From Stutzerimonas decontaminans (lineage in GTDB: Bacteria > Pseudomonadota > Gammaproteobacteria > Pseudomonadales > Pseudomonadaceae): a stretch of DNA of 64,000 nt. The notes under the pieces were generated by a model. That model searched no databases. It was not told the origin of the DNA and worked only from the letters and a program-made list of their open reading frames with translations. How positions within the stretch are numbered: the first letter of the stretch is position 1; the number at the start of each line of letters is the position of its first letter. Where the stretch lies: positions 1 to 64,000 of the forward strand of contig NZ_CP007510.1 in NCBI RefSeq assembly GCF_000661915.1, given 5' to 3'. Shown here piece after piece: positions 1,204 to 49,571 of this stretch. The position numbers and the translations under genes were made by a program.

Positions 1204-1231
1204 ATTGTCCCGCGTAACCTTAAATACCCAA
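1204..1231 (-). promoter_or_regulatory. TTGGGT-N16-GACAAT promoter-like element
   Basis: On the minus strand TTGGGT, 16 bp, then GACAAT, 27 bp before the DUF4942 start. It belongs to the family of about twenty such elements in this window. Confidence 0.6.
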
Positions 1232-1242
1232 ATCAGCGCTGC

Positions 1243-2073
1243 CTAACCTTCGGGCTCAGCAATGATATCGTTCATGTCTTGCTCAAGATCCTCAGGAGGA
1301 AAATTCCCATTCTGGAACTGGAGCGTCATTTGATCGAGCAGTCTAAAGTTGAATTTAATTGCCTTAACTGTCCGGTGCTCTTTTATTAACTCGTAGTCCA
1401 GTTCCATGCTGCATTTATTGCGCAGCTCCTTCACTGAAGCATCGATTACACGACTGCGCAGATTACTAAAGCGCTCATAGGCATCGCCGAGCTGAAGGCG
1501 CCGGCGCAGCTCCTCAACTGTGATGTAAAGCCATCCTTTCGACTTGTACTGCATCAGCATCTCAAAGAGTCGAAAGCTATAGGTTGATTCGATGCCGGAA
1601 ACACGCCAAAGGTCGTAGGACGTGTAATGGCCGATCAGCCTGGAGAGATATGGCTTAACGGTCGTGGAGAAAAGAAGCTCTACCCGGCCTTCGCCTTTGA
1701 CATAGGTGCAGCGCTCGACCCAGCGGACCTCGTGGATCGCCCGGCCTTTGCCAGTCCCGGTGATGGAGGTGATCTTGGCGTTGAACAGCTGCTTGGCGGC
1801 GTCCTGGAGCTGGGTGTAGGCATCGCTCTTGTTGACCGTGTACCGGCTCATGAAGTCGTGCGCGGTGACTACGATCCCGTTGGGCATGGGCTTGCGCGAA
1901 TCGATCTTGGCAATGGCCAGCAGGATCAGCCGCTGCTCAGCCACGGACAAGCGATAGGACGCGCCCACCAGATCGTTGTGCTTGGAGACAACGTGAGGCG
2001 AAATCATCGTTTCATTGCTGGTGTCGCTGTCTAGCTCAGTGGCGACGTTATCAGTCGTGATGATGTCTCCCAT
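1243..2073 (-). CDS. repA: Plasmid replication initiator, Rep_3 family
   Basis: 276 residues with the typical two winged-helix layout of Rep_3 (RepB/RepA-type) initiators. Visible motifs are LSVAEQRLILLAIAKI near residue 45, the conserved SxYSFRLFEML stretch around 165 and the EELRRRLQLGDAYERFSNLRSRVI recognition region around 185-210, here described in pieces. Such proteins bind iterons and open the origin; two iteron arrays lie directly upstream at 2225-2597 and 2800-2904. The start ATG at 2073 follows GAGG. Together with the iterons this marks the basic replicon of the plasmid. The incompatibility group cannot be assigned by eye. Confidence 0.9.
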   Translation of the reverse strand: MGDIITTDNVATELDSDTSNETMISPHVVSKHNDLVGASYRLSVAEQRLILLAIAKIDSRKPMPNGIVVTAHDFMSRYTVNKSDAYTQLQDAAKQLFNAKITSITGTGKGRAIHEVRWVERCTYVKGEGRVELLFSTTVKPYLSRLIGHYTSYDLWRVSGIESTYSFRLFEMLMQYKSKGWLYITVEELRRRLQLGDAYERFSNLRSRVIDASVKELRNKCSMELDYELIKEHRTVKAIKFNFRLLDQMTLQFQNGNFPPEDLEQDMNDIIAEPEG

Positions 2074-2108
2074 GCCTCAATCCTGGTCAAAAGTCATTCA
2101 GGGTGTTG

Positions 2109-2137
2109 AGCATAAAGGCCTTTCCCGGAAACCCCAA
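2109..2137 (-). promoter_or_regulatory. Likely rep promoter (TTGGGG-N17-TATGCT)
   Basis: A variant of the recurrent element with a 17-bp spacer, 35 bp upstream of the rep start codon and just inside the first iteron array. Initiator binding to the iterons could repress it, as in other iteron plasmids; that part is inference. Confidence 0.55.
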
Positions 2138-2224
2138 CCGACCATCCTGCAGATATCTCGCACGGTGCCGGCAGGTAATGGAATCTTTAGTCATGACAGC
2201 TTGATACGGGTGATCTTCTCGACC

Positions 2225-2597
2225 TGGAATCTGTAGGCATGAGGATTTCCTGAGGTCATTTCAGCATGGAATCTGTAGTCATAAGGCCACGCCGCCCTGG
2301 TTGGGAACATGGAATTTGTAGTCATGACACGTTCCAGCCCGCTCATTTCGCATGGAATCTGTAGTCATGACGCCGAGAGAGGGAGTTTTTCCACCTGGAA
2401 TCTGTAGTCATGAAGCCTGGAATTTGTAGTCGTGAGGGCTTCAAAGCCTCGCTTATGACATGGAATCTGTAGTCATGAGCCCGTTCGGAGCGCTGCCGAA
2501 CATGGAATTTGTAGTCATGAGGCCGCACCCATCGGCCGATCTGCGGCTCAAAATCGTGACATTGATCATGCTCACAGCATGGAATTTGTAGCTGTGA
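2225..2597 (-). repeat. Iteron array 1 (nine copies)
   Basis: Nine copies of an 18-bp core TGGAATCTGTAGTCATGA (with C/T and GG/GT variants) start at 2225, 2267, 2310, 2353, 2396, 2418, 2461, 2503 and 2580. Spacing is 42-43 bp, with one interval of 22 bp and a last one of 77 bp, so all copies face the same side of the helix. The sequences between copies are unrelated. This is the binding region for the Rep protein encoded next to it. Confidence 0.92.
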
Positions 2598-2697
2598 GGC
2601 CAGCGGGACAATCGGAAGTAGCTCAAGGTTCCGATAAAAGGAAAACTGGTTGCAGATCAATGATTTAGCGGCCTTCAGAGGTGCCGGAAGCTTAAAC

Positions 2698-2748
2698 CTA
2701 CAACAAATGCGTAAGATTGAGCCTTACAAATTGGTTGTTTTGTTGTAG
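2698..2748. other. Nested inverted repeat between the iteron arrays
   Basis: CTACAACAAA (2698-2707) pairs with TTTGTTGTAG (2739-2748), and inside it GTAAG (2711-2715) pairs with CTTAC (2723-2727). The region is AT-rich relative to its surroundings. It could be a structural origin element or a regulator binding site; the sequence alone does not decide. Confidence 0.6.
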
Positions 2749-2786
2749 CCCTGACTTCGCCCCTTCATCCCGCGTTCTCACCTGCC

Positions 2787-3000
2787 TGTGGATAGCGCAT
2801 GGAATCTGTAGCACGAAGCATGGAATCCGTAGTCATGAGGAATGGAATCTGTAGGCATGAGACATGGAATCTGTAGTCATGAAGGTGGGAATCTGTAGTC
2901 ATGACCCTTCTGAAACCCGCATGGTAGAAGGGCTGGAGCGTTCCGATAAAGCTTTTAAAAACAAGCCATAAAACAAGAAAAAAAGATTTAAAAGGGCAGG
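2787..3000 (-). repeat. oriV: Iteron array 2, DnaA-like box and AT-rich region
   Basis: Five more iterons start at 2800 (degenerate), 2821, 2843, 2865 and 2887, with a regular 21-22 bp period. TGTGGATAG at 2787-2795 is one mismatch from a DnaA box on the opposite strand. The stretch from about 2940 to 2998 is very A+T-rich (runs of A and TTTAAAA) and is the best candidate for the unwinding element. No gene is likely between 2074 and 3152; the frames open there run through the repeats. Confidence 0.8.
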
Positions 3001-3152
3001 TGGTTGTGGACAAGGCGGGATCGAGCCCCGGCCTGGGACCTGATCCCACGACTCCCACCTCCTGCGAACCAACTTTGCCAGCTAGCAGCGACAGGGCATC
3101 CCTACCAGGGGAAGAGCGGACCTGGCAGCTCAGCACCTCAGATCAGGCAACT

Positions 3153-4457: not shown

Positions 4458-4514
4458 GCTGTTTGTGTACGCCTCTGGAGAATCAGCAGGGCTAACGCCC
4501 TGCGCCGCATTCAC

Positions 4515-4536: not shown

Positions 4537-4646
4537 TGCCCTGCGGGGAAGATGGATGGAGCACGCAAATTTGCGAGCAACGAATGCTGCTTTGCATGCG
4601 GGTTCCCAGCGAAATCAGAATTCCAGCCCCAAGCAGAGTCGGGCGG

Positions 4647-4904: not shown

Positions 4905-5173
4905 CTCGATGCTTCCTTGTTCGGCAGTCGGATCAGATCCACACGGTTAGGATCTTCCCCGCCATCCGGGAAAAACAGGTTGAACTCAACGATGGCGGTG
5001 ATCCCTTCCGAGCGCAGCTGGACAGTGGTCTGCCAATGGTCCGTTTGTTCACCGGACCAAGGCGCAACCTCGACCACCTCCTTTCCTTGGAAGCATCCCC
5101 GCAGTACAAGGGAGGCGGCACTGGTACGCCGCCCGAGCAAATGAAATCGTTCAAGAGCCACTGGCACTACCAC
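4901..5173 (-). CDS. Hypothetical protein (90 aa)
   Basis: Not recognised. It overlaps the upstream gene by 7 nt and the downstream gene by 4 nt, a strong sign of a real operon member. The C-terminal half alternates charged and hydrophobic residues (RSEGITAIVEFNLFFPDGG), which suggests a small beta-rich fold. Confidence 0.65.
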   Translation of the reverse strand: MVVPVALERFHLLGRRTSAASLVLRGCFQGKEVVEVAPWSGEQTDHWQTTVQLRSEGITAIVEFNLFFPDGGEDPNRVDLIRLPNKEASR

Positions 5174-5658
5174 TCGTAGGTCTTCAGGCCATCAACGGCA
5201 TCCCAGTCCCGATCCAGCCGCACCCAGCCATCGAGCGCCTGACGCTTGAGCCACTGGCGAATATCGGCGGCACACTGCGGCACCTCTGTTTCCAGCCCCT
5301 CTTGCTCCAAGAAGCGGATGAACATGCCCGCTCCGTAATTGGCGACGATGGCGCAGCTACAGGCGTCCGGCTTATCACTCAGCGCTTGAGCAGTAGGCTG
5401 GTCCAGGTGCGCAGTCGAGATAACGGGCATCGCCATCATGTCGAACCGGCCTTCAGTGATACGGACGCGGTGAGAGTGATCTTCGAGAGTGGCGGGAGTG
5501 TCACCAGTGACCAGGCCCTTGCCAGTGATATCGCAAACGACCTGCTCAAGATTGGCGTACAACTCGCCTCGTTGCATTGCGATCCCAGTGGCCTCCTCAT
5601 CACCACCATTCGGGTTGACGGTGCCGCTGAAGATCAATGAAAAGTTGAGGGGTTGCAT
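5167..5658 (-). CDS. Hypothetical protein (163 aa), first gene of operon
   Basis: Not recognised. The protein is acidic with several Cys (DACSCAIVANYGAG) and no membrane segment. The recurrent TTGGGT-N16 promoter at 5689-5716 lies 31 bp upstream, so this is the first gene of a three-gene operon with the two genes downstream. Confidence 0.65.
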   Translation of the reverse strand: MQPLNFSLIFSGTVNPNGGDEEATGIAMQRGELYANLEQVVCDITGKGLVTGDTPATLEDHSHRVRITEGRFDMMAMPVISTAHLDQPTAQALSDKPDACSCAIVANYGAGMFIRFLEQEGLETEVPQCAADIRQWLKRQALDGWVRLDRDWDAVDGLKTYEW

Positions 5659-5688: not shown

Positions 5689-5716
5689 AGGCTATCGCTG
5701 ACCCGAAGAAACCCAA
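5689..5716 (-). promoter_or_regulatory. TTGGGT-N16-TAGCCT promoter-like element
   Basis: Minus strand CTTGGGTTT, 16 bp after TTGGGT, then TAGCCT; 31 bp before the start at 5658. TAGCCT is shared exactly with the copies at 27958 and 35662. Confidence 0.7.
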
Positions 5717-5806: not shown

Positions 5807-6352
5807 CTATGCAGGTTGCTCGTTCGGGTTCTTGACCAAGTGCTCAAACAGCACACGCGCGGAAAAAACTTCCAGTTCGGCGGGCGTAATGGGGGAGGGG
5901 TGAGGTGCTGCACCTGGCTTCAGAATTCGGGTGCCCTGAGCGGTATGCCAATCGAAGACCATGAAGTGCAGCGATAGGCCACCTTGAAGCCTTGGCAAAG
6001 CCTTGAGCGTTTGGGTATGGCTGGCATACAGAGCCAAAGCCAGCGCCAGATCACGGGAGGAAGCCCGATCCCGTTTTTCTGGGCGCAGCGCATCGTAATG
6101 AGACAAGGCGCCCGCTAGCACATCAACTGGGCTGAGCCCGGCAGCATGCTTCAGCATTTCGCCCGAGCACATAGCGCGATACCCCTCAGGTGTCAGCTGA
6201 GCAACCAGACGCGAGCCCTGCGGAATGCTGTAGGAATAGAGCCAGAAGCCTCCCGAGGACGTAACATCTTCCTGACCGGCGTCCAGCACCCACCCAGCGC
6301 TCTCAATTTGGGCCGCAAATTTGCGACCGCGTGCTTTTCCAGCCTCGTCCAT
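5807..6352 (-). CDS. Hypothetical protein (181 aa)
   Basis: Not recognised. The start at 6352 (MDEAGKARGRKF) is chosen because GGAG lies 6 nt before it; the frame is open to 6439 but without a ribosome site and across a promoter. The middle part is helical with many Arg and Ala, and the Trp- and Tyr-containing N-terminal part (GGFWLYSYSIPQG) looks like a beta sheet. It is a single gene with its own TTGGGT-N16 promoter, divergent from umuD. Confidence 0.65.
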   Translation of the reverse strand: MDEAGKARGRKFAAQIESAGWVLDAGQEDVTSSGGFWLYSYSIPQGSRLVAQLTPEGYRAMCSGEMLKHAAGLSPVDVLAGALSHYDALRPEKRDRASSRDLALALALYASHTQTLKALPRLQGGLSLHFMVFDWHTAQGTRILKPGAAPHPSPITPAELEVFSARVLFEHLVKNPNEQPA

Positions 6353-6398: not shown

Positions 6399-6426
6399 AG
6401 GCTTGCATGGAACCGGCGAAACCCAA
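6399..6426 (-). promoter_or_regulatory. TTGGGT-N16-AAGCCT promoter-like element
   Basis: Minus strand copy of the recurrent element, 46 bp before the start at 6352. Confidence 0.6.
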
Positions 6427-6509: not shown

Positions 6510-6524
6510 TATTGGTTTCGCATC

Positions 6525-6976: not shown

Positions 6977-7004
6977 TTGGGTTTATGCTGGATTATGCAA
7001 AAAT
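6977..7004 (+). promoter_or_regulatory. TTGGGT-N16 element variant before the ATPase gene
   Basis: TTGGGT followed after 16 bp by AAAAAT, 36 bp before the ATPase start. Weaker than other copies in its second box, but the position and spacing agree. It could give the ATPase SOS-independent expression. Confidence 0.4.
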
Positions 7005-7040: not shown

Positions 7041-8162
7041 ATGACCACCAAGGATCGTCTGCACTTCCCCCGGCACGCGCTGGCCGAGTCCATTTTGCTG
7101 GGCTTCGAGAACAACATCCAGACTGCCACGACCATTTTCGCTCCGCGTCGAAAAGGCAAGACCACGTTCGTGCGCAACGATCTCATTCCGATGGCCAGAG
7201 ACAAGGGGTTTCTTGTTGCGACCGCTGACCTATGGCTGGACAAGGATCACCCGGAGCGAGTTATCGCGCGGGCATTGCAGGAGGCCATTCATGGCACCGG
7301 CTTTGTCCGGCGCACCTTGCTACGGTTTACGAGGCCCGGTCAGGTGATCAGTGGCGTGAACGCCGGTGCCGGCACGGACGGAGTATCCATTGGCCTCGAT
7401 CTGGCGGACGACGCGGGGCTTGTTCTGCCCGAGCTGTTCGAACGATTCAGCCAGCTCGGCAAAGGCAAGGCGCTGCTGATCATCGACGAGGTTCAGCACC
7501 TCGCCACGCGCAAGGAATTCGAGACGTTTACCGCCACGCTGCGCACGCTACTGCAGGGCGCGCAGGGTGAAGTCTATGCCGTGTTTACCGGCTCTTCGCA
7601 GCATGGCCTGGCGCGCATGTTCCGGCGCAGCAAAGCCCCTTTCTACCAGTACGGTTCGGAGGTCAGTTTCCCGGAGCTGGGTATGGAATTCGCGCAGCAC
7701 CTTGCCGCCTTGTATTTCGAGGCCACCGGCCGAACCTGGGAAGCTGCAGAGGCGTTCTCGTTGTACGTGCGGCGCGGAATGATGCCCAAGCATTTGCGCG
7801 AGATTTACAACCTGAGCCTGACGCAGAACCTGCCCGTAGTTGAGGCGGATAAAATCGTCTGGGCTTCCATGCTGGACGAAGGCCAGTTCGCCACCCTGAT
7901 CGAGAGCTTGGCTCCGCTGGATCAGGCATTGCTTGTGGGCATTCTCACTGGGGAATCCTTGTTCTCGGCTGAATACCGCAAGAGGCTCGGTGATGAACTC
8001 CCCAGCGGAATAGCGCCTACGACGACTCAGGTGCAGTCAGCGCTCAAACGCCTGCAGCGAGCCGAACTGATCGGTAACCTCGACCACGGCAGTTGGAGCA
8101 TTGAGGACGGCGCCTTGCAAAGCTACCTGCGGCGGGTTTTGCTGGACGATGATCAGGACTGA
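7041..8162 (+). CDS. AAA/STAND-like ATPase between umuD and umuC
   Basis: 373 residues. Walker A-like APRRKGKTT at 34-42, Walker B KALLIIDEVQ at 143-152, and a sensor-like TGSS after strand 4. The C-terminal part after residue 270 resembles a winged helix (TTTQVQSALKRLQRAELIGNL). The organisation recalls archaeal-type or TniB-like ATPases with a DNA-binding tail. It lies 75 bp after umuD and 18 bp before umuC, so it is part of the SOS operon. Its role is unknown; it might load or regulate polymerase V. Confidence 0.75.
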   Translation: MTTKDRLHFPRHALAESILLGFENNIQTATTIFAPRRKGKTTFVRNDLIPMARDKGFLVATADLWLDKDHPERVIARALQEAIHGTGFVRRTLLRFTRPGQVISGVNAGAGTDGVSIGLDLADDAGLVLPELFERFSQLGKGKALLIIDEVQHLATRKEFETFTATLRTLLQGAQGEVYAVFTGSSQHGLARMFRRSKAPFYQYGSEVSFPELGMEFAQHLAALYFEATGRTWEAAEAFSLYVRRGMMPKHLREIYNLSLTQNLPVVEADKIVWASMLDEGQFATLIESLAPLDQALLVGILTGESLFSAEYRKRLGDELPSGIAPTTTQVQSALKRLQRAELIGNLDHGSWSIEDGALQSYLRRVLLDDDQD

Positions 8163-12099: not shown

Positions 12100-13002
12100 C
12101 TAGCCCTGCTCACCGTTCTTTGCTGGCTTCTTCTCAGCGCGAAGCTCCTTCAGCTCTTCCTTCAGCTCGCTCAAGCTGCCCCTGGCGGTTTCCAGTTCTC
12201 TGCTGGTGGACTCAAGCCGCGCCTGCACGGCCTGCAGAGTGATTTGGGCCTGGTGGGCATCGCCATTGGCACGGGCGGCTGCCTCCTGAGCTGCTGCCTG
12301 CTGCTGGCGTGCCTCACGCTCGCGCTCTTCTGCTGCCGACACACGCTGGATAGCGGCATCGAGCTTGGCGGCGGCGACTGCCGCTTGTTGCTCTGCCGAC
12401 TGCTTACCGGACAGTGCCTCGTCGAGCGCGGTGCGGAGCCGTTCCACTTCCCCTTCCAGGCGAGGCATGGATTCGAGCCGCAGTTCGGCGCGGGCCAGGG
12501 CGTGCTGCGCCGTCTCTGCCACTTCTCGCTCACGGTTTGCCCTGGTGTCGGCTGCCTCCACCTCTTCCTCGGCTTCACTGCGCACGCGCTCGATTTCCTC
12601 GCGGATCTCGCTGATGGTCCCTGCCTGCTGCTCGACCTTGGCGCGGGCTTCGTCCAGGGCGCGGAGGGTCGTGGCCAGCTGCTCGGCCAGCTCGCTGTTT
12701 TCCTGCTGGCACAGTGTCAGGGTGTCCTCGGCCTCGTTTGCGCGCTCATCGGCGCGAACAGCGGCTTCGCCGGCTGCTGCGCGGACTTGCTCGGCAATGA
12801 GCTGGACGATGCGAGGGTCCAGCTGGATCTCCGGCGCCGCCACTGAAGGCTTGCGTGCACGCCAGCTGGCGAGCAGTGGGGTGATCTGGTTTGGGGAGCC
12901 TCCACCAAGGTAATCGCGCACGGAGCGCACGGAGACGCGGCTGCCTGAGGCCTCAAGAGCATCTGCTGCAGCGAAAACCCTATCCGGTGTGATGTTGGCC
13001 AT
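12100..13002 (-). CDS. kfrA: KfrA-like plasmid DNA-binding protein
   Basis: 300 residues from ATG at 13002, chosen because GGAG lies 6 nt upstream; the frame continues to 13041 through operator repeats. The N-terminal 60 residues contain the KfrA helix-turn-helix (VRDYLGGGSPNQITPLL). The rest is a very long Glu/Ala/Arg coiled coil, ending in a Lys-rich tail. KfrA of IncP and related plasmids binds its own promoter and forms filaments that help stable inheritance. A regular TAAC repeat array lies directly upstream. Confidence 0.85.
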   Translation of the reverse strand: MANITPDRVFAAADALEASGSRVSVRSVRDYLGGGSPNQITPLLASWRARKPSVAAPEIQLDPRIVQLIAEQVRAAAGEAAVRADERANEAEDTLTLCQQENSELAEQLATTLRALDEARAKVEQQAGTISEIREEIERVRSEAEEEVEAADTRANREREVAETAQHALARAELRLESMPRLEGEVERLRTALDEALSGKQSAEQQAAVAAAKLDAAIQRVSAAEEREREARQQQAAAQEAAARANGDAHQAQITLQAVQARLESTSRELETARGSLSELKEELKELRAEKKPAKNGEQG

Positions 13003-13013
13003 GGTGTGCTCCG

Positions 13014-13056
13014 TAACGTAATAACAGATAACGAATAACATAATAACACATAACGT
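13014..13056. repeat. TAAC repeat array, probable KfrA operator
   Basis: Six copies of TAAC[G/A] start at 13014, 13022, 13029, 13036, 13044 and 13051, with alternating steps of 8 and 7 bp. The array lies 12 bp upstream of the kfrA start, over its presumed promoter. Autoregulation by KfrA is known in other plasmids; that this array is its site here is inference. Confidence 0.65.
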
Positions 13057-13116: not shown

Positions 13117-13347
13117 TCAAGCCTTTGCTGCTCGCGCACTTATCGCTGACGCGTAAGCCGGGTCGGCGTGGGCGAGCCCAGCGCTCAGGTGGCGCCGCAG
13201 ATCTCGCGAATTGCCAATACCGCCCATAAAGGTGCCCGGCGCACCGGGGCCAGCCGTGGGCAGCGCATCAGCAAAATGGGGGTGCCGGGGCTCTTCGGCC
13301 AGCCGGGCTTGGGTTTCCCAGAAGCAGTGTTCTCCTGATGTCAGCAC
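13117..13347 (-). CDS. Possible hypothetical protein (76 aa)
   Basis: Open frame with a coding-like C-terminal half, but the N-terminal part overlaps the promoter of the helicase gene on the other strand and no good ribosome site is seen. An internal Met (near residue 41) would give a shorter product. Not recognised; it may be spurious. Confidence 0.3.
   Translation of the reverse strand: MLTSGEHCFWETQARLAEEPRHPHFADALPTAGPGAPGTFMGGIGNSRDLRRHLSAGLAHADPAYASAISARAAKA
13309..13336 (+). promoter_or_regulatory. TTGGGT-N16-TCTCCT promoter-like element
   Basis: CTTGGGTTT with TCTCCT after the 16-bp spacer, 25 bp before the helicase start. The second box lacks the usual A at its second position. Confidence 0.5.
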
Positions 13348-27957: not shown

Positions 27958-27985
27958 AGGCTATCGACAAGCCGGCAGATCCCAA
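27958..27985 (-). promoter_or_regulatory. TTGGGA-N16-TAGCCT promoter-like element
   Basis: Minus strand, 25 bp before the start at 27932, in the short gap after the DndC-like gene. Confidence 0.68.
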
Positions 27986-28005: not shown

Positions 28006-29808
28006 CTAGAACCCCAGCGAGAGCTGCCCAGTTGCTGGCGCAGACATGGCCGCACACGGCACCTGAGCAGCTTGCCCGGTGAGCTTGGCGATCAGCGCAT
28101 CAGGATCGTTGAGGATGTCGCGCAGCCCGTGGCGGTGGAGCTGATTGCCGATCCGCAACATCCGGTCCCAGGACGAATGCCCGCCCTTCTTGAACGACAC
28201 GGTGCCGAAGCGGGCCAGGTAGTGCACAACATCCGAGGGGTAAACATCGGCGTGCGGGCCGTAGTATTCCAGGGCGTGATCCAGCTCGAAGTCGAAGAAC
28301 ATTTCCGCTCCCTCGGCATCGATGTCGAACTCGTTGGTTTCGGTCACATGGGTGTAGTAGATCCCGCCTTTCTTCACGACCGACTCAGCGTTGGCCACGC
28401 TTGCAATGGCCGACCGCAGACCCTGGTAGATCCCGTGGAATTGCTCGTCCACGAATGGCACCTCGACTTCACGGGTGACATCCAGATCCTTTCGCTCGTA
28501 GACCTTGTACTCATGCGGGATGCGGTAGCGCTTGCCGTTCTCGAAAATCTGGCGGTACTCGCTCAGCGCTGTGAATGGCCGCTGGTAGGCGTAGCGCCCC
28601 CAGTAGAGGTCGATAGTGAGAATTTCCTTCATGCCCAGCAGCTGGAAACGCGGCGGTTCACCGGCTGCCCACGCGCGGTCAGCCTCATCGGCATCGATAC
28701 TCAGCGCATAGCGCAGCAGCTCAAGGCATAGCTCGGGTGAGTAGGCATTCGCAGCGATTTTTATCGTCCCGGTTTCGTCATTGATCGACCGGGCCAGCCA
28801 GTTGCGACCCTGTGGGTCGTAGTGGCGCGCCTGCAGGTAGTTGCGGAAATCGCTCAGCGGCTTCATCCAGCTGTGCTTGCCGGTTTCCTCGGCGAGCATG
28901 TTTTCCATGCTGCGGTCAGTACCGACACGCAGGCAGATCCAGCAGCCATGACGCGCGCCGCAGCCGGTCTTGCGCTCGACGCCGCTGTCACGGATGAAGA
29001 CGTTGACCATGCAGTCGCCGCCCGCATCGCGGTAAACCTCCGTCAGGGCCTGGAAGTCGCTGTAGGTGTCGATCTGGCCGCTGGTGACCTTGCCCAGGAA
29101 GGTGAAGATGTCCAGGGTCGTGAAGTCGGCCACGGGGCTCAGCACCCACTCAGGCTTCTTGTTCGGGCCAGCAGTATTGACCGGCACGATGGCGCTCTCG
29201 CCACGGGCTTCCATATTGCGCTCGCGCACCGCGGATTCGTCCCGCCGCGTGCCGATCAGCACGACGACATCATCATCACGGTAGGCGCTACCCATCTGGT
29301 GTTTCAGCACGGCTTTGATCTGTCGCTTGGTACGGTCCAGTGGCGATTTCTTCATCTGTTGCTGGCACTTAGCGCTATTGCCCGGCATAGACGCCACGGT
29401 GCGTCCGCCGATGATCGACACAAGCCAGTTTTCAGTCAGGTTGGGCTTGCACACCCAGATCCTCACCGGAAGGTTCTTGCTCGTGGCATAATCCTTGAGC
29501 GAGCGGATCTCGCCTTTGCTGTAGGCCAGCACCGCAGGGTTTTCGACCAGGGTGTCACTGGTCATGACATGGAATTCGGGAACTTCGTAACCAGCGTCCT
29601 GCAGCCGCTCCATCGCCATCAGGGTCAGGGCGACCATGACGCTACTATCCTTCCCGAACGAACATGCCCCGATCAGGCGCTTGCCGGCGCGAATGTTGGC
29701 CTCGATGACAGCTACCGCATCCGCCACTTTCTCGTCGAAGGTGCGCTCAACGATAGGGCTTGCTACCGGGATGGGGTCTTGGAAAAGAGTGGCGTCGATC
29801 AGCTGCAT
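28006..29808 (-). CDS. DndC-like PAPS-reductase-family protein with C-terminal extension
   Basis: 600 residues. The PP-loop SFGKDSSV (50-57), SDTLVENPAV, GTRRDESAVRE and Cys motifs AKCQQQM and CGARHGCWIC follow the order seen in DndC, the ATP-pyrophosphatase/FeS protein of DNA phosphorothioation, and in related phage PAPS-reductase-like proteins. About 230 further residues follow, which typical DndC proteins lack. No dndA, B, D or E homologue is nearby. It could activate sulfate or modify nucleic acid; the substrate is unknown. Own TTGGGT-N16 promoter. Confidence 0.75.
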   Translation of the reverse strand: MQLIDATLFQDPIPVASPIVERTFDEKVADAVAVIEANIRAGKRLIGACSFGKDSSVMVALTLMAMERLQDAGYEVPEFHVMTSDTLVENPAVLAYSKGEIRSLKDYATSKNLPVRIWVCKPNLTENWLVSIIGGRTVASMPGNSAKCQQQMKKSPLDRTKRQIKAVLKHQMGSAYRDDDVVVLIGTRRDESAVRERNMEARGESAIVPVNTAGPNKKPEWVLSPVADFTTLDIFTFLGKVTSGQIDTYSDFQALTEVYRDAGGDCMVNVFIRDSGVERKTGCGARHGCWICLRVGTDRSMENMLAEETGKHSWMKPLSDFRNYLQARHYDPQGRNWLARSINDETGTIKIAANAYSPELCLELLRYALSIDADEADRAWAAGEPPRFQLLGMKEILTIDLYWGRYAYQRPFTALSEYRQIFENGKRYRIPHEYKVYERKDLDVTREVEVPFVDEQFHGIYQGLRSAIASVANAESVVKKGGIYYTHVTETNEFDIDAEGAEMFFDFELDHALEYYGPHADVYPSDVVHYLARFGTVSFKKGGHSSWDRMLRIGNQLHRHGLRDILNDPDALIAKLTGQAAQVPCAAMSAPATGQLSLGF

Positions 29809-29850: not shown

Positions 29851-29878
29851 ACACTACGGCCGGTCGCCAAATACCCAA
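29851..29878 (-). promoter_or_regulatory. TTGGGT-N16-TAGTGT promoter-like element
   Basis: Minus strand, 42 bp before the DndC-like gene. The 462-bp divergent gap 29809-30270 contains this and the plus-strand copy at 30213; nothing else was recognised between them. Confidence 0.65.
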
Positions 29879-34091: not shown

Positions 34092-34119
34092 AGATTCGCA
34101 TGAAGCGCCGCTAACCCAA
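34092..34119 (-). promoter_or_regulatory. TTGGGT-N16-GAATCT promoter-like element
   Basis: Minus strand, 33 bp before the 66-residue gene at 34058. Confidence 0.6.
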
Positions 34120-34895: not shown

Positions 34896-35627
34896 TCAGA
34901 TACACGCAAATTTGCGTATGGAGCCTTCCAGGGTGCCAGTCCACACCGCCCCGGATTTCATGCCTTCTCCGTGATAGACGTTGAACTGCTGGCCCACACG
35001 AATACCGTTGGGCACGCATGCACGATGCACAGTCGGGTGGCCTTCGATATCGAAATCCTGGTACCCGTGCTTGTCGCACACCAGGCGCACGCTGAGCAGC
35101 TGAAGGGAAGAATCGTTGCAGCGAGCCTTGTGCAGCAGCGCGCGGGCCTGCTCGGCAATCAGAGCACGTTCGGCCTTGGCCGCCTCGGTGCGCGATGCGT
35201 AGGTGAAGTCGCCAGGCGCTCCCGGCTCGTCGCGGCGCGGGTCGCACACGATCCGCCACTTTCCGTCCGCATAGTTGCGACTGACGCAGCCGCAACCTCC
35301 TTCCGGCCGCGCGATGTTCCAGACGTACCATCCGCCCTTACGCCACGCACTGAACATCGGCACCCAGTCGTCATCTTCGGCCAGCGCTTCGGTGAAGTCG
35401 AAGACTCGGCAGCAGATAACCCGTGCCGAGTCCGGGGCAAACAGAACGCTGTACTCAAGCAGGCTGGATTGTCCGTTACGCTCGGCCTGGACAAAGCGCA
35501 CGAGCTTGGCTCCGTCTTCTCGCCACGGCTCGACGGCCGTATTGCGGTAGCCAAAGTCTGTTGTGCAGAACTGCGCTTCAGCAGCCGCCAGGCGGGCGGA
35601 TTGAACAGTGATATCGGTGATGGTCAT
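34896..35627 (-). CDS. Hypothetical protein (243 aa)
   Basis: Not recognised. Mixed alpha/beta with Trp- and Cys-rich centre (WYVWNIARPEGGCGCVSRNY) and a helical stretch around residue 150. First gene of a three-gene operon; TTGGGT-N16-TAGCCT 34 bp upstream. Confidence 0.6.
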   Translation of the reverse strand: MTITDITVQSARLAAAEAQFCTTDFGYRNTAVEPWREDGAKLVRFVQAERNGQSSLLEYSVLFAPDSARVICCRVFDFTEALAEDDDWVPMFSAWRKGGWYVWNIARPEGGCGCVSRNYADGKWRIVCDPRRDEPGAPGDFTYASRTEAAKAERALIAEQARALLHKARCNDSSLQLLSVRLVCDKHGYQDFDIEGHPTVHRACVPNGIRVGQQFNVYHGEGMKSGAVWTGTLEGSIRKFACI

Positions 35628-35661: not shown

Positions 35662-35689
35662 AGGCTACGGCCAGGCCCGCAAAACCCAA
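35662..35689 (-). promoter_or_regulatory. TTGGGT-N16-TAGCCT promoter-like element
   Basis: Minus strand, 34 bp before the start at 35627. It lies in the 66-bp gap after the preceding operon, so the two operons are separately promoted. Confidence 0.7.
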
Positions 35690-35693: not shown

Positions 35694-36257
35694 CTAGGGC
35701 GGCTTCAAGCTGACATGCCTGCGCATCTTCCCAGGTCCGGCCATGTCCCATGTGGCCTTGGTACCGCCATCGGCCGGCTCAGCGCCCATCCCGAAAGTGA
35801 AGGCCAGCACATGCGTGCACTGCTCTGCCACGAGCCGGTTGCGTGCGAACATCGCTGCATAGCCTTTGCACTCGGCCTGGTAGGTGCATTGCGCGCCACC
35901 GAGGATCGCTTCCTGGATGTCGGCTAGCGTGTCTCGCCGGATCGCCCGGCTGAATTGCCTGTGGTAATGGTTTGCTGCACCGCCGCTGGTGCCATTGCCA
36001 CCGGAAAAACTCGCCTCGAATGGCGCAGGAAGATGCAGTGTCAGGCTGGCGGATAAGCCCTCATTGAAGGCCCAGACTGCTGCATGATCGGCCCACGCAG
36101 CACCGCCAGAAACGAGATGGTCGCCGGGTCGTACATAGAACCTGACCGCACGGCAAATGAACTCCCAGTGGGAAATATCCATTGGGAATTGCTTATCGCG
36201 CCCTGCGGTGCCGATGACCGCGATCACCCGTTGCATGCCGGCGTGGTGCTCGGTCAT
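35694..36257 (-). CDS. SLOG-like Rossmann-fold protein (187 aa)
   Basis: The N-terminus VIAVIGTAGRD, then DHLVSGGAAWADHAAV, and near the end GGTKATWDMA follow the pattern of SLOG/LOG-type nucleotide-binding proteins (GT-G, GGA, GGT). Such domains sense or process nucleotides in some defence systems and phages. Assignment is by motif only. It overlaps the upstream gene by 4 nt. Confidence 0.5.
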   Translation of the reverse strand: MTEHHAGMQRVIAVIGTAGRDKQFPMDISHWEFICRAVRFYVRPGDHLVSGGAAWADHAAVWAFNEGLSASLTLHLPAPFEASFSGGNGTSGGAANHYHRQFSRAIRRDTLADIQEAILGGAQCTYQAECKGYAAMFARNRLVAEQCTHVLAFTFGMGAEPADGGTKATWDMAGPGKMRRHVSLKPP

Positions 36258-36787
36258 TCCACAACGAACAGCGGGCCGGTGGGCGACTCCGTGCGTGTGA
36301 GCGTCACATCGTTCTCCAGGCGCAGCAGGATCTTGTCGCCCACTTTGAACAGCGAGAAGGCCATAGCATCATCGTCGAACGATACATGCACACAGGGAAC
36401 CTCATCAGTTCCGGTCGCGGGGTTGGTGTTGACCTCGGCCACGACAGAAATCATGTCATCCAAGGCGCCATCCATAGCGCCAACGGTTAGGTAAACCTGA
36501 CCATTTACGCCTCGCTGGTCCTCGATGTCGATCTGATGCGTAGCCGGCTTGGCCTCACCCTCGCCGTAGGCTTGCCAGTGCTTGACCTGAACCGACTTGA
36601 GCGGGTGCATGGCAGCAAACTCCCAGACGCCGGGCTGCCCGTGGACCGCAGCGCCACGGACGAAGCGCACATCGAGGCTGCTGTACTCGGCCAGCAACTC
36701 TTCATCGGTCCCGTAGACGAGTCCGACAATCTTGTATCCATCCCTGGCTTGCTCGGGGGCGGTACCGAATTCGCAGATGACTGCCAT
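36254..36787 (-). CDS. Hypothetical protein (177 aa)
   Basis: Not recognised. Beta-rich, acidic (VHVSFDDDAMAFSLFKVGDKILL). ATGA overlap with the SLOG-like gene. TTGGGT-N16 promoter 37 bp upstream. Confidence 0.6.
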   Translation of the reverse strand: MAVICEFGTAPEQARDGYKIVGLVYGTDEELLAEYSSLDVRFVRGAAVHGQPGVWEFAAMHPLKSVQVKHWQAYGEGEAKPATHQIDIEDQRGVNGQVYLTVGAMDGALDDMISVVAEVNTNPATGTDEVPCVHVSFDDDAMAFSLFKVGDKILLRLENDVTLTRTESPTGPLFVVE

Positions 36788-36824: not shown

Positions 36825-36852
36825 AGCTTCGCACGATTGGCCTAGAACCCAA
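36825..36852 (-). promoter_or_regulatory. TTGGGT-N16-GAAGCT promoter-like element
   Basis: Minus strand, 37 bp before the start at 36787. Confidence 0.62.
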
Positions 36853-37256: not shown

Positions 37257-37284
37257 ACCATCGCACGCATGAGCAGGAACCCAA
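37257..37284 (-). promoter_or_regulatory. TTGGGT-N16-GATGGT promoter-like element
   Basis: Minus strand, 32 bp before the start at 37224. Confidence 0.65.
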
Positions 37285-38332: not shown

Positions 38333-38360
38333 ACCATAGCTCTGCACAGGGCAAACCCAA
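38333..38360 (-). promoter_or_regulatory. TTGGGT-N16-TATGGT promoter-like element
   Basis: Minus strand, 35 bp before the start at 38297. Confidence 0.65.
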
Positions 38361-40358: not shown

Positions 40359-40386
40359 ATAATCGGTGTTGCGCTGAGAAACCCAA
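40359..40386 (-). promoter_or_regulatory. TTGGGT-N16-GATTAT promoter-like element
   Basis: Minus strand, 32 bp before the start at 40326. Second box closest to a sigma-70 minus-10 of all copies. Confidence 0.65.
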
Positions 40387-40409: not shown

Positions 40410-40877
40410 TTAAACGGCAATAACGCCTTCATGCACGAGCGCGTTGTAGGCAATACGCAGCAACGGCAGATGCTCAGCCACCGACATCTCGGTATCGAGT
40501 TCTTCATAGGCGTTGAGTCCTTCCCACCAGGCTTGGAAAGACTCGAATGTCGGGAAGCTGATTACTTCGTTATCGAGCATGGTGGTGATGCTGGCTTGCA
40601 TCACTTCGAGGCTTGGCGCCGGCGTGTCGGAGCTGGGGAACTCCGTTGCCAACCGAGCCATCGCTGCGCTGTACTGCTCTTCAAATTTGGAGTCACTGGC
40701 TTCTGCAGGCGGTGCTGCTGGCACCTCCTCGAAGAAATGCCGAATCGACAGAGGAACCTCTGTCATGGTGTGCGGATAGCGGCAACCTACGAGTCCCTGT
40801 CCTGCCAACACAGATTGCGCGTGCATTTTCTCCGGGACGCTGCAGCTGGTTTTGATAGCGATAAGCGAATGACTCAT
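40410..40877 (-). CDS. Hypothetical protein (155 aa)
   Basis: Not recognised. Acidic, Pro/Ala-rich middle (EEVPAAPPAEASDSK) and a helical C-terminal half. Single gene with its own promoter-like element 36 bp upstream. Confidence 0.6.
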   Translation of the reverse strand: MSHSLIAIKTSCSVPEKMHAQSVLAGQGLVGCRYPHTMTEVPLSIRHFFEEVPAAPPAEASDSKFEEQYSAAMARLATEFPSSDTPAPSLEVMQASITTMLDNEVISFPTFESFQAWWEGLNAYEELDTEMSVAEHLPLLRIAYNALVHEGVIAV

Positions 40878-40913: not shown

Positions 40914-40941
40914 ATGTTGTCAGTGACTGCCGAAATCCCAA
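40914..40941 (-). promoter_or_regulatory. TTGGGA-N16-CAACAT promoter-like element
   Basis: Minus strand, 36 bp before the start at 40877. Confidence 0.55.
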
Positions 40942-40968: not shown

Positions 40969-41343
40969 CTAGAAGGCCCCGGTCCAAAGACTCTGGTATC
41001 GACCGGCGTCGTACTCGGCCATCAGGGCGTCGGCGGTGACCTCCGACACGAGCACATCGCCGCAGATGCCGCGAGTGTGGTCCAGAAAGCGCAGGCCGAA
41101 GAGAGGGCGGTCGGTTACCGAGCATACATCCTGAGCGATTATTTTCGCCTCGATCTTCTGCCCCTCAGGGGAATAAGGGCGTTTCGTATTGAACGCCAGA
41201 AGCCAGGCGTGAATCTCTTCGGATTGAAGAACGCGCGGGTCGCCGGATTCAGACCAATATTCCCCCATAGTTGCGTTCCAGCTGTATGCGATGCCGTTGA
41301 GCTGAAGCTGCTCAAGACCGGGGATGTGTGTCTGACGTGCCAT
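40969..41343 (-). CDS. Hypothetical protein (124 aa)
   Basis: Start at 41343 (MARQTHIPG), AAGGAG 7 nt upstream. Mixed fold; no motif recognised. Own promoter-like element 29 bp upstream. Confidence 0.6.
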   Translation of the reverse strand: MARQTHIPGLEQLQLNGIAYSWNATMGEYWSESGDPRVLQSEEIHAWLLAFNTKRPYSPEGQKIEAKIIAQDVCSVTDRPLFGLRFLDHTRGICGDVLVSEVTADALMAEYDAGRYQSLWTGAF

Positions 41344-41372: not shown

Positions 41373-41400
41373 ATAGTGGCCCGCGCTCAGGAGAACCCAA
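41373..41400 (-). promoter_or_regulatory. TTGGGT-N16-CACTAT promoter-like element
   Basis: Minus strand, 29 bp before the start at 41343. Confidence 0.58.
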
Positions 41401-43162: not shown

Positions 43163-43190
43163 TTGGGTTTCCCGCGAGGCGTGAGAGCCT
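43163..43190 (+). promoter_or_regulatory. TTGGGT-N16-GAGCCT promoter-like element (plus strand)
   Basis: TTTGGGTTT with GAGCCT after the 16-bp spacer. The next gene starts 119 bp on, farther than usual; a 32-codon frame at 43197 lies between but has no ribosome site. Confidence 0.5.
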
Positions 43191-44846: not shown

Positions 44847-45206
44847 TCAGAAACTCTCATCGGCCAGCGCGTGTAGAGCAAACATTTCACCGCACTGCTG
44901 GCGATAGCTCTCAAGCGTCATCGCTGGATCATCCTGACCGAGATCGTAGCCGACATTCTCCTCATACCAGGCTGACAATTCGGCTCGGTTCATCACGGCA
45001 AAATCGGGCGCCGCATCCGCCGCCGAAAGCTCATCCGCGAACGCGGTTTCCGTGGTTCCGTTCGGCAAGCTGATCGTGAACATCGGCCCGACCTCTTCTC
45101 GGTCGTATTCAGCTGGACTCAGAGGACCAACTACCGTGGCCACCACCGGCCCCGGCCCATCTGAATCAGTGCTGCTCCAGATAACACGAGAGTTGGGTTT
45201 GAACAT
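44847..45206 (-). CDS. Hypothetical protein (119 aa)
   Basis: Acidic, with a beta-rich first half (RVIWSSTDSDGPGPVVATVVG) and a helical end. Not recognised. TTGGGT-N16-GATGCT 35 bp upstream. Confidence 0.6.
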   Translation of the reverse strand: MFKPNSRVIWSSTDSDGPGPVVATVVGPLSPAEYDREEVGPMFTISLPNGTTETAFADELSAADAAPDFAVMNRAELSAWYEENVGYDLGQDDPAMTLESYRQQCGEMFALHALADESF

Positions 45207-45241: not shown

Positions 45242-45269
45242 AGCATCACTCCATCCTGCAGAAACCCAA
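45242..45269 (-). promoter_or_regulatory. TTGGGT-N16-GATGCT promoter-like element
   Basis: Minus strand, 35 bp before the start at 45206; partly in the gap after the PAPS-reductase-like pseudogene. Confidence 0.68.
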
Positions 45270-45278
45270 GTGCACGCA

Positions 45279-46085: not shown

Positions 46086-46124
46086 TGAACCGCCCCGGGA
46101 ATTCCGGAGGCTCTTTGGTGTGAG

Positions 46125-47347
<1,223 letters not shown>

Positions 47348-47397
47348 GGCTCCATCCTCTCAAGAGTTGGAGCCTCCGGGAAAGCCGGGGCGGTTCA

Positions 47398-47779
47398 CCC
47401 GAAGCCGGAGCAGGATAATGAACTGGACTACCCTGGACTATGCGCGGGGCCGAAGGTCCCAAAGTGGCTACTCAAAAAGCGGGAGAAACGAGCGATCATC
47501 ATTCGCGCCTCGGAGCTTTTCGTCTTCGACCAGCACGATGGGCACGGCAAGCGCTGCAGCACCTGCCAGGTTGCAGTCACGGTCACAGCCAAGTTCTGCC
47601 CCTGCTGCAGCAGGTACAGCTTAGTCGAGACAAAGCGAATTGATCTCGCCCGCCTGGATGAGAACCACGCACTGAGCGGCAACTGGCTGGTGGCCCGCTC
47701 AGCCGCCCTGGAGCCGAACCTTGATGTCACTCACCTGCGCCATTACATCGAACGGCTCCAGCGGCATCCCAGCGGCTGA
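47398..47779 (+). pseudogene. C-terminal fragment of an unrecognised zinc protein
   Basis: Open frame leaving the IS3 end to TGA at 47779. Coding-like, with CSTCQ and CPCCSRY (zinc site), and a helical end. Its 5' part is lost at the IS; longer frames into the IS are antisense to OrfA. Followed by a terminator. Confidence 0.5.
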
Positions 47780-47857
47780 GGTGACTGTTATCGTCGAATA
47801 ACCGTTTGCACGAGCAGGCAACTACCAAGGAATCCTTAGTAGTTGAACAGGCACGAC

Positions 47858-47895
47858 AACGCCGCATGACCGAGACCCGGAGATGCGGCGTTTTT
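47858..47895 (+). terminator. Rho-independent terminator
   Basis: AACGCCGCAT / ATGCGGCGTT stem, 15-nt loop, then T-run, about 80 bp after the truncated plus-strand gene. Confidence 0.72.
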
Positions 47896-47927
47896 GTTTG
47901 CCCGGCCGGAGCCGGTGCGGGCGGTCT

Positions 47928-48110
47928 TCAGGGTGCCGGCGAAGCCAGCATGCCCTGCTGCTCCATCAGTCGGATCACGCGATCGGTATCGTTCGGCCCA
48001 AGCGGCTCGCCGCGGGCGATCTTCATCAGCTCCTTGCGCCTCGCCATCGCAGCGAGGCGGGTGTCGTTCGCGCCGCTGCCGGTGGGGCGGGGCGTGAAGT
48101 CGTCGTTCAT
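47928..48110 (-). CDS. Hypothetical protein (60 aa)
   Basis: Basic helix ARRKELMKIARGE and acidic end DRVIRLMEQQG. Not recognised. GGAGG-like site (AGGAGG... AAGGAGGTTTCC) upstream and the recurrent promoter 24 bp upstream. Confidence 0.55.
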   Translation of the reverse strand: MNDDFTPRPTGSGANDTRLAAMARRKELMKIARGEPLGPNDTDRVIRLMEQQGMLASPAP

Positions 48111-48134
48111 GGAAACCTCCTTGGTGAGGCGTCC

Positions 48135-48162
48135 AGCGTCACACGGCGCGGAGGAAATCCAA
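48135..48162 (-). promoter_or_regulatory. TTGGAT-N16-GACGCT promoter-like element
   Basis: Minus strand, 24 bp before the start at 48110; one mismatch in the first box. Confidence 0.55.
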
Positions 48163-48219
48163 GTCGCTGCTGATCTGGCCGGCGCGCAGCAGGCTACTAC
48201 TGCGTGACCGGCCGGGTGA

Positions 48220-48936
48220 TCAAACGGAGAAACCGAGCGGCCAGAGGAAATAAAATCCGGCGCGTCCCTTGCGGAACTCCCCGCCTGCGGTCTTACCCTG
48301 ATCTGTTAGGTAGTGCATGGTGCCGCGCAGCTCCAAGTGGCCAGCCCCAACCAGGCGTTCGAGCAGATCCGGGGTTTTCAGGCCAAGGCTCGCTGCGAGC
48401 TTCGAGGTGGTGAGCTTGGAATGCTGGCTGCCGTTGTCGCTTTCATCTTCCGCTTCCGCACCAAGCGTTTCGGGCTTGGCCACCATCTCCATTGCAATCC
48501 GAACCTCATCACTGACGCGGACAATGCGCTGGGCTTCCTCGTAGGCGTCGCGGTAGCACTCGGCATCGGATTCGCGCGTGAGCATCACGCCCATCTCGTT
48601 GTTGTTCACCTGGGAGAAGTCGTAGAGGTTCAGGCTGGTAATGATCGCCACTTCCTCGTTGAGGTAGCACTTGGCGTGAAGGTTCTTGCAGAAGCTGGTC
48701 CGCACGAAGCTCAGGCTTTTCAGCCAATTAATTTCCTGCGGATGCAGTTCGCTTTTGCCGTAGACGATCCGAACGTCGATCTTCATGCGGTTCTTGTCTT
48801 CCAAAAGTTCGCGAATCCGATCGTTGATCTTGAGAAAGGGGCTGATCAGAATCAGCCGCTCCTTCGCGTTCTTGATCAACTCTTCCAGGTAGTAATTCGT
48901 GGCACTCGTGTTGAGGAATTTCGGCATATTTTCCAT
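48220..48936 (-). CDS. Phospholipase D-like (PLD) family protein
   Basis: 238 residues. One HKD-type motif: NLHAKCYLNEEVAIITSLNL near residues 84-103 holds H, K and the N/S-L-N end. The first half has the PLD fold start LISPFLKINDRI. The C-terminal 60 residues look like a winged helix (LTTSKLAASLGLKTPDLLERL). Single-HKD proteins are usually dimeric nucleases; with the DNA-binding tail, a DNA-processing or defence role is plausible. AAAAGGGGC precedes the start. Confidence 0.72.
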   Translation of the reverse strand: MENMPKFLNTSATNYYLEELIKNAKERLILISPFLKINDRIRELLEDKNRMKIDVRIVYGKSELHPQEINWLKSLSFVRTSFCKNLHAKCYLNEEVAIITSLNLYDFSQVNNNEMGVMLTRESDAECYRDAYEEAQRIVRVSDEVRIAMEMVAKPETLGAEAEDESDNGSQHSKLTTSKLAASLGLKTPDLLERLVGAGHLELRGTMHYLTDQGKTAGGEFRKGRAGFYFLWPLGFSV

Positions 48937-48982
48937 TGCCCCTTTTCATGGTGTGAAATTACTGACGGTACAACAAAGCGAC

Positions 48983-49207
48983 TTACCCAACCCTGCCGCA
49001 GCGGCAGAAGCGAGCGAAGCGGCGAACAATCTTGCTGGTCCGCTCCGTCATGTCGTACTCCTTGCCGGCGCACGAGACGCGAAACGTGACGAAGAATTTA
49101 CGCTGGGAAACCGCGAGCACCTGCTCGCGGATCTCGCCCTGGGCGCCTTCGCGCAGCGTGGTGTCGCCGGGTCGGATCTGGCCGGCATGCACGAGTTCGG
49201 TTTGCAT
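48983..49207 (-). CDS. Hypothetical protein (74 aa)
   Basis: Start at 49207 (MQTELVHAGQIRPGD), 2 bp after the previous stop. Small beta-barrel pattern with FVTFRVSCAGKEYDM and a basic Cys-containing tail. Not recognised. Confidence 0.58.
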   Translation of the reverse strand: MQTELVHAGQIRPGDTTLREGAQGEIREQVLAVSQRKFFVTFRVSCAGKEYDMTERTSKIVRRFARFCRCGRVG

Positions 49208-49209
49208 GA

Positions 49210-49509
49210 TCAGCACGCCTGATACCGGCTGCTCATCTGCACGGCATACACCTCGGCCACCTCGGCGGTGCAGGGCGCAAAGCGTACATGCAGAACGAAT
49301 CGAGTGGAAAAAAGCGCCTCGCAATAGCAGACCTTCGACCAGTTGTCGGCGTGGGTATCGAGCCAGGCGCTCGACTCGACTACCGGGGTGGTGAAGTCGA
49401 AGGCCTTGAAGCGGGCCTCGGCCTGCGCCGTGCGCGCCATCAGCAGCCGGCTCGGGTTGAGGTCGGGTTGAGAGAGGGTAAGCGGCTGGCGGCTGGCGGC
49501 GAGGTTCAT
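49210..49509 (-). CDS. Hypothetical protein (99 aa)
   Basis: Start at 49509 (MNLAASRQP), GGAG 6 nt upstream. Not recognised. First gene of a two-gene operon with promoter-like element 34 bp upstream. Confidence 0.58.
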   Translation of the reverse strand: MNLAASRQPLTLSQPDLNPSRLLMARTAQAEARFKAFDFTTPVVESSAWLDTHADNWSKVCYCEALFSTRFVLHVRFAPCTAEVAEVYAVQMSSRYQAC

Positions 49510-49543
49510 CGTGGGCTCCGTGGGTTCGCGATGGCGATGACCC

Positions 49544-49571
49544 ACTATCACCCAGATCGGGGAAATCCCAA
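49544..49571 (-). promoter_or_regulatory. TTGGGA-N16-GATAGT promoter-like element
   Basis: Minus strand, 34 bp before the start at 49509. Confidence 0.65.

Follow-up and report, generated by a model that had tools for sequence, protein, structure and literature searches.

In the portions of the cited accounts drawn on here and below, the middle promoters of bacteriophage T4 are described as carrying an asymmetric MotA box that lies 13 base pairs (bp) upstream of the −10 element and replaces the −35 element, with an extended −10 in about half of them (PMC2988021). On IncC plasmids the FlhDC-type activator AcaCD is reported to drive plasmid-wide class II activation at promoters that have no −35 box (PMC4207636, PMC5058578), and on RK2/RP4 the KorA and KorB proteins provide plasmid-coded control of many backbone promoters (PMC7314908). 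Here we describe a promoter element, CTTGGGWTTY followed at a rigid distance by a minimal −10 hexamer, on a 107,733-bp plasmid of Stutzerimonas decontaminans (contig NZ_CP007510.1, hereafter C2), of which bases 1–64,000 were scanned as the window. The motif is confirmed as real and clade-wide among IncP-7-related Pseudomonas plasmids; its form, geometry, conservation and position before genes can each be read directly from the replicons compared. The titles and abstract openings searched in the literature contain no description of it, which is not proof of absence.

A preliminary description of this DNA had listed 21 places as one family with TTGGGT, a spacer of 16 bp (17 bp in a variant before rep) and a second box nAnnnT. 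The described sequence is present at all 21, and 15 of them match TTGGGT-N16-nAnnnT exactly. The window holds 18 exact matches against a mean of 0.96 and a largest value of 3 in 100 dinucleotide shuffles, which bears out the proposed enrichment. The same is true of its specificity for the plasmid family, since 24 exact matches on the whole plasmid compare with 29 on the ~4.7-Mb chromosome, where the pattern is not enriched; a control with the pattern reversed gave 48 matches in the whole genome. The fixed spacing also held up: on the plasmid a spacer of 16 yields 24 matches, against 0–5 for each spacer of 10–15 and 17–23. Three window matches absent from the earlier list (24424, 47174 and 54368) look like chance, and 47174 adjoins an IS3 transposase gene and has an identical copy on the chromosome. 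A weight matrix trained on 25 sites of this plasmid scored at least 14 at 30 places, where 1.1 are expected in order-2 Markov sequence. The earlier statement that the nah, ttg and insertion sequence (IS) genes lack the element is right for the efflux (about 18.5–24.3 kb) and catabolic (50–62 kb) regions, in which no place reaches 14, and fails at a single IS, at 47174. Proximity to a start codon likewise stands for 14 of the 15 exact listed sites, with ATG or GTG 18–46 nucleotides (nt) after the second box, and does not hold at 43163.

The matrix was then applied to relatives, as had been proposed. Scores of at least 14 were found at 26 places in 100 kb of pWTJH2 (1.0 expected), 16 in pCAR1 60–160 kb (1.0), 18 in contig G243:C53 (0.2) and 28 in contig G044:C3 (1.9), all four held out from training and diverged from C2; the backbone proteins common to C2 and pWTJH2 are mostly 45–80% identical. 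CP040459 has 23 such places against 1.1 expected. The motif-bearing replicons comprise C2, CP071949, CP040459, pWTJH2, pCAR1 (IncP-7), two plasmids related to pCAR1 and typed IncP, namely pWW53 (over its first 50 kb) and pPH2PALO502, and contigs in genomes G243 and G044. Contig G131:C2, which is close to pCAR1, was not taken as independent. HS-18 is weakly motif-bearing, with 6 sites scoring at least 13 in 101 kb, and neither the whole of pVIM_Pse-KSS14 nor the 50 kb covered of the YY7 plasmid gave a site of at least 14.

Alignment of sites from these replicons reveals an element larger than first described. Selection by 12 box columns yielded 193 sites from ten plasmids or contigs, and removal of sites at least 62% identical over 60 nt left 121; because this set was not filtered further it holds some chance matches, and CP071949, a close relative of C2, supplies 29 of the 121. 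The consensus reads CTTGGGWTTY at −35 to −26, 13 bp of loose bases that end in RTGn, nAnnnT, GRR and a YA step 7 nt past the −10, with ATG or GTG 14–47 nt after the −10 in 100 sites. In the first box, TTGGG stands as previously given, whereas position 6 is T or A (80 and 41 sites). Among the columns used in selection, G−14 is present in 94 sites, A−11 in 115 and T−7 in 118. The columns that played no part in selection are also significant: T−15 occurs in 58 sites against a background of 19% (p=5e-13), G−6 in 67, R−5 in 89, Y−1 in 87, A+1 in 58 and T+2 in 50. A YA step lies at −1/+1 in 50 sites compared with 4–22 at 16 other tested offsets. T−15, G−6 and this YA step agree with the earlier proposal of a single mode of polymerase contact in which the −10 is of the sigma-70 type. 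The −10 hexamers match TATAAT at a mean of only 1.02 of the 4 free positions, the assumed chance value being 0.84. The contact columns are fixed while the spacer columns are mostly near random (0.01–0.1 bit; 0.27 and 0.15 for the first two after the box). The 121 aligned sites show no A/T-rich UP element; no TTGACA-like −35 with a 15–19-bp spacer was seen, only TTGGGW with a spacer of 16. A recurrent palindromic form of the box was not found, and any paired arrangement tried had at most 2 copies per plasmid.

The rigidity of the spacer can be judged independently of column selection, and it is here that A−11 and T−7 gain such support. Among 194 non-redundant TTGGGWT(T/C) boxes, A−11 and T−7 accompany the box at spacer 16 in 89, compared with 2–14 for any one of the 14 other spacers in the range 10–24; with G−14 added the count is 64 at spacer 16 versus 0–4 at each other spacer. 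The remaining 105 boxes look mostly like chance matches, with members lacking A−11 among them. On C2, 17 of 19 CTTGGGWTY boxes stand in full geometry and the other 2 keep G−14 and T−7, against a null of 0.15. Full and partial cases together are 15 and 3 of 19 on CP040459, 15 and 2 of 18 on pWTJH2, 9 and 1 of 13 on G243:C53, and 2 and 1 of 7 in 50 kb of HS-18; pPH2PALO502 has 4 of 4 in geometry, pWW53 4 of 7, KSS14 0 of 2 and YY7 0 of 1.

The sites lie in front of genes, typically about 30 nt from the annotated start. In pWTJH2 50–100 kb, 18 of 24 sites are 15–60 nt before an annotated start, as are 17 of 21 in CP071949 1–37.5 kb, where random positions give 3.5% and 4.1%, respectively. The box, G−14, A−11 and T−7 are kept while the spacer drifts in orthologous promoters of uvrD-like genes, of DUF4942 and DUF5983 genes and of several genes without a name. 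No site precedes the distantly related uvrD-like match in contig G243:C42 (46% identity), and the same is true of some matches that start late. The box was not found before the parA, mvaT-like, integrase, p66, ParB-like, DUF1173, DksA-like and yejK genes. This gene-by-gene comparison of orthologues places most tested maintenance genes outside the group, and DNA-metabolism and small unknown genes inside it.

How, then, might the element be read? The primary sigma factor, together with the host polymerase, makes its contacts at A−11, T−7, the RTG element and the initiator. We know of no −35 element of the form TTGGGWTTY, which would appear to extend further downstream than sigma region 4 could cover by itself. 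The poor match to TATAAT predicts promoters that are weak without help, as expected if they depend on an activator. The absence of chromosomal enrichment implies that the reader should come from the plasmid, and together with the asymmetry of the box, its reach to −26 and the rigid 16-bp spacer makes a plasmid-coded reader most likely. The same box before dozens of plasmid genes suggests common control by one factor. On these grounds we infer that sigma-70 is used (RpoD, from its contact features), that the reader is plasmid-coded and that it activates rather than represses. We hypothesize that host RNA polymerase with the primary sigma factor RpoD would melt the minimal −10, in which A−11 and T−7 are joined by the RTG of an extended −10 and by a discriminator rich in purines, and begin transcription at the YA step 7 nt past it, a start predicted from the alignment. 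CTTGGGWTTY at −35 to −26 would replace TTGACA, and a plasmid-coded class II or sigma-appropriating activator would dock on the polymerase at the −35 position, with DNA-metabolism genes and small unknown plasmid genes expressed as one clade-wide regulon. Taken as a whole, we regard the chances for and against this account as evenly balanced.

Which protein might occupy the box? The preliminary description had offered a plasmid-coded sigma factor as one possibility, and this was rejected: when the plasmid was searched with Pfam profiles, Sigma70_r2 gave nothing at E≤1, and Sigma70_r4 gave two matches (E 0.06 and 0.08), both below the curated cut-off, of which one lies in the regulator gene that adjoins the efflux operon and the other in an IS21 transposase. 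An activator of the FlhC/AcaC type was rejected as well, as the genome has no FlhC match at E≤1; an annotated FlhC-type regulator (L134:7390-8151) is present on the related, motif-negative Pseudomonas plasmid of YY7. The 66-amino-acid protein p66 (C2 98533–98733, L002:14533-14733) was found by tblastn in every motif-bearing plasmid checked, but neither in KSS14 nor in the 50 kb covered of YY7; these two share DUF1173 and show no rep, p66, ParB-like or mvaT-like matches. Its AlphaFold2 model comprises three strands and a helix (predicted local distance difference test score, pLDDT, 82), for which PDB and viral models offered no similar fold at E≤0.001. By sequence, p66 matched neither Pfam nor NCBIfam at 0.01, and its best PDB match stood at E 0.66; its profile has 44 database matches, the named ones from Pseudomonas and Azotobacter. 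As p66 co-occurs with the motif but the rest of the backbone block does too, and the model is not decisive, it was set aside. Of 298 family genomes, 7 encode a second ParB-like protein, and all 7 rank among the 8 genomes richest in the motif (7–23); the eighth, G200, has 7 motifs, those places shown all being on contig 1. Genomes G044 and G131 had been chosen by motif count before the search for this protein. All 9 Pseudomonas loci around the gene, at least two of them belonging to a single strain, carry the motif (2–6 each); a further 71 loci, more distant, hold 11 motifs in total in 1.12 Mb. Its AlphaFold2 model (pLDDT 82, predicted template modelling score 0.55) matched Noc, Spo0J and KorB in Foldseek at E 1.6e-6 to 3.3e-4, with template modelling scores by target of up to 0.53. 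This candidate was also rejected, because the backbone block shares its pattern and the palindrome CGCAAATTTGCG is a likelier target. Descent with the plasmid clade accounts for the distribution of the motif, which singles out no regulator.

The perfect palindrome CGCAAATTTGCG is an observation in its own right. It lies at window positions 4564, 6314 and 34905 and at pCAR1 74474, 102440 and 166271, and 17 more copies in relatives bring the number to 23 over eleven clade replicons or parts (1–4 each, none in HS-18), where 0–0.1 are expected in each. One pCAR1 copy lies about 360 bp past the end of parB, and the palindrome is likely a parS site or an operator of a ParB-family protein.

Two scans of viral contigs for the exact pattern, with no control, yielded 83 stretches and 77 stretches, with one match in every stretch listed (80 of the 83), and the matches are taken as chance. 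The matrix found 13 of these viral loci with at least two places scoring at least 15. Two low-GC viral contigs among the 13 (L171 4590–6441 and L211 2354–2679) carry tandem ~36-bp units of GGGTTTCT-N10-TGGTAAACT or similar; these arrays are judged unrelated, with the plasmid-promoter geometry arising by chance or convergence. On contig L253 of the viral collection (54% GC), positions 265 and 488 score 20.4 and 15.7 with start codons close behind, and these are possibly true relatives of the plasmid promoter.

Several observations weigh against an RpoD polymerase assisted by a plasmid-coded activator. One is a subclass of 29 raw sites that keep the box, spacing, G−14 and T−7 but carry T, C or G at −11 (16, 8 and 5 sites); this set is unfiltered, and several members lie in genes, are chance-like or are copies in close relatives. 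The state is nevertheless conserved across plasmid lineages at two loci. The helicase promoter reads TCTCCT, TTTTCT or TTTCCT in C2, CP071949, CP040459, pWTJH2, pCAR1 and G243:C42 (TATCCC in G044:C3), and a site lacking A−11 lies directly 3′ of the ParB-like gene in C2, CP040459, pCAR1, pWW53, pPH2PALO502 and HS-18; pWTJH2 has a site that resembles it. To our knowledge a plain sigma-70 −10 should not tolerate the loss of A−11, and we cannot account for the conservation of this subclass by such a −10. A small plasmid factor that appropriates the sigma −35 contact for the box at dozens of genes, in the manner of MotA/AsiA and with a second subclass able to do without A−11, is by analogy a tentative and rather doubtful extension. 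The coupling of box and −10 is also looser off C2, with 8 full and 3 partial cases among 22 CTTGGGWTY boxes on pCAR1 and 14 and 1 among 26 on G044:C3. The candidates p66 and the ParB-like protein track the motif no differently from the rest of the backbone block, and the ParB-like protein, with its Noc/Spo0J/KorB fold, may instead bind CGCAAATTTGCG. Finally, 22 predicted pCAR1 starts (score at least 14, 60–199 kb) were compared with the unit starts of a tiling-array map that is coarse and covers few conditions (PMC2642839). At a distance of up to 30 nt no predicted start coincides with the start of a mapped unit, and 10 fall outside any same-strand unit. Two lie within 60 nt (shift null 0.31; P 0.03) and 3 within 100 nt (shift null 0.51; P 0.008), 12 are inside same-strand units (shift mean 8.7), and at a score of at least 12 one further site is 42 nt from unit 22. 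The ORF100 and ORF145 promoters, mapped by primer extension in that study, are not among the predicted sites. The available transcript map neither confirms nor refutes the predicted starts.

The observations can also be viewed from other directions. Were the box the operator of a plasmid-coded repressor, overlapping the −35 of weak extended −10 promoters and released by zygotic induction as with KorA/KorB of RP4, the genes would be silent where the plasmid is established and switch on when it enters a plasmid-free cell. The 10 predicted pCAR1 starts outside units detected in exponential culture would follow, zygotic-type induction is known in RP4 (PMC7314908), and the clade encodes a second ParB-family protein of KorB-like fold whose own gene has no box. 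A non-palindromic box in one orientation and at one distance does not fit an operator well, nor does its invariable company on C2 of full geometry or of G−14 and T−7 (though not on pCAR1 and G044:C3). The 12 predicted starts inside detected units and the better candidate operator CGCAAATTTGCG of the ParB-like protein tell against repression too, and we consider it unlikely. Slightly less probable still is that host sigma-70 reads TTGGGWTT as a weak natural −35 variant and no dedicated factor exists, the sites being shared by descent or serving weak constitutive expression. Within sigma-70 −35 boxes the TTG is the most strongly conserved portion, but general sigma-70 promoters accept several spacers, unlike these boxes, for which 15, 17 and 18 bp are not above background. 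The lack of chromosomal enrichment and the conservation to −26 speak against direct reading as well, while in its favour a TGn/−10 promoter can work without a −35 contact (PMC2988021).

Two boxes at a fixed spacing, and conserved members lacking A−11, are also what an alternative sigma factor reading both boxes would leave. The profile search set out above found none on the plasmid above the curated cut-off, a host-coded one should also give chromosomal sites, and the −10 bears primary-sigma features, so that this is very improbable. Duplication of a repeat family, or mere chance, might be suspected from the resemblance among sites; near-random spacer columns between fixed contact columns do not suit duplication, and shuffled or Markov sequence gives about 1 match, counts that already refute this account and leave it with next to no probability.

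The listed sites of the window are collected in Table 1. No site before rep like the variant at 2109 was found in pCAR1 or G044:C3, and the 40359 site was not found in CP040459 or pWTJH2, where the matches begin late in the query.

Table 1 Listed sites of the promoter element in the window, from box to −10.
Feature	Position	Strand	Basis and remarks
Promoter element before DUF4942-like gene	1204..1231	−	Exact pattern; box, A−11 and T−7 kept in three relatives
Variant TTGGGG with 17-bp spacer before rep	2109..2137	−	Matrix score 11.3; weakest member
Promoter element before DUF5983 gene 5167–5658	5689..5716	−	Exact pattern
Promoter element before gene 5807–6352	6399..6426	−	Exact pattern
Promoter element before gene 7041–8162	6977..7004	+	Exact pattern
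A−11-less member (TCTCCT) before DEAD-box helicase gene	13309..13336	+	Orthologue comparison
Promoter element, TTGGGA	27958..27985	−	Sequence and matrix
Promoter element before gene 28006–29808	29851..29878	−	Exact pattern
Promoter element before open reading frame (ORF) of 80 amino acids	30213..30240	+	Exact pattern
Promoter element	34092..34119	−	Exact pattern
Promoter element before gene 34896–35627	35662..35689	−	Exact pattern
Promoter element before gene 36254–36787	36825..36852	−	Exact pattern; kept in pWTJH2 (66% amino-acid identity)
Promoter element	37257..37284	−	Exact pattern; kept in CP040459
Promoter element	38333..38360	−	Exact pattern; kept in CP071949
Promoter element	40359..40386	−	Exact pattern; kept in CP071949
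Promoter element, TTGGGA, before gene 40410–40877	40914..40941	−	Kept in pWTJH2 (46% amino-acid identity)
Promoter element before gene 40969–41343	41373..41400	−	Exact pattern
Promoter element; first ORF start of at least 40 amino acids 119 nt away	43163..43190	+	Exact pattern
Promoter element before gene 44847–45206	45242..45269	−	Exact pattern
Promoter element, TTGGAT	48135..48162	−	Sequence and matrix
Promoter element, TTGGGA	49544..49571	−	Sequence and matrix

Among the genes concerned, the box-bearing gene at 28006–29808 (minus strand) encodes a phosphosulfate-reductase-like protein with a match to DndC (DNA phosphorothioation) below the curated cut-off. A KfrA_N-type DNA-binding protein (PF11740, E 1.3e-17) is encoded at window 12100–13041 (minus strand), divergent from the DEAD-box helicase gene. 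Beyond the window, the product of the box-bearing gene at C2 100972–101739 (L002:16972-17739) matches Whirly marginally (E 6e-5). The gene divergent from it carries a box of its own, so that the two boxes stand back to back as CCCAA-N4-TTGGG.

The clade is a vehicle for degradation pathways and, in clinical relatives, for resistance cargo, while most small backbone genes of the clade are annotated only as hypothetical. A shared promoter would turn dozens of these hypothetical genes into one candidate regulon with predicted start sites, and a box-driven reporter would be a direct handle on the controlling factor and on the timing of plasmid gene use.

How does the element compare with described systems? 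KorA/KorB operators are palindromic, whereas the plasmid box is asymmetric and tied to a −10; the likeness lies in the clade's own protein with a predicted KorB-like fold. Sigma-70 extended −10 promoters share the RTG element and probably also A−11, T−7 and an initiator-like step 7 nt downstream, to which the plasmid element adds the fixed box at −35 to −26 and a 16-bp spacer only. AcaCD resembles the arrangement proposed here in plasmid-wide class II activation and in having no −35 box, but in the accounts cited its core GCCCAAAATGGGC has the −10 22–24 bp downstream, compared with 13 bp from the end of the plasmid box, and FlhC has no counterpart in this genome at the threshold given above. 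The closest geometry among the systems compared is that of T4 MotA/AsiA, whose box is described as spanning −35 to −26 with 13 bp left before the −10; the plasmid box takes up the same stretch, provided that the YA step marks +1. The likeness is one of geometry: the T4 box reads (a/t)(a/t)(a/t)TGCTTtA and the plasmid box CTTGGGWTTY, T4 is described as needing an excellent −10 where the plasmid −10 is poor, and T4 is a phage, whereas here a comparable arrangement is carried by stably inherited plasmids.

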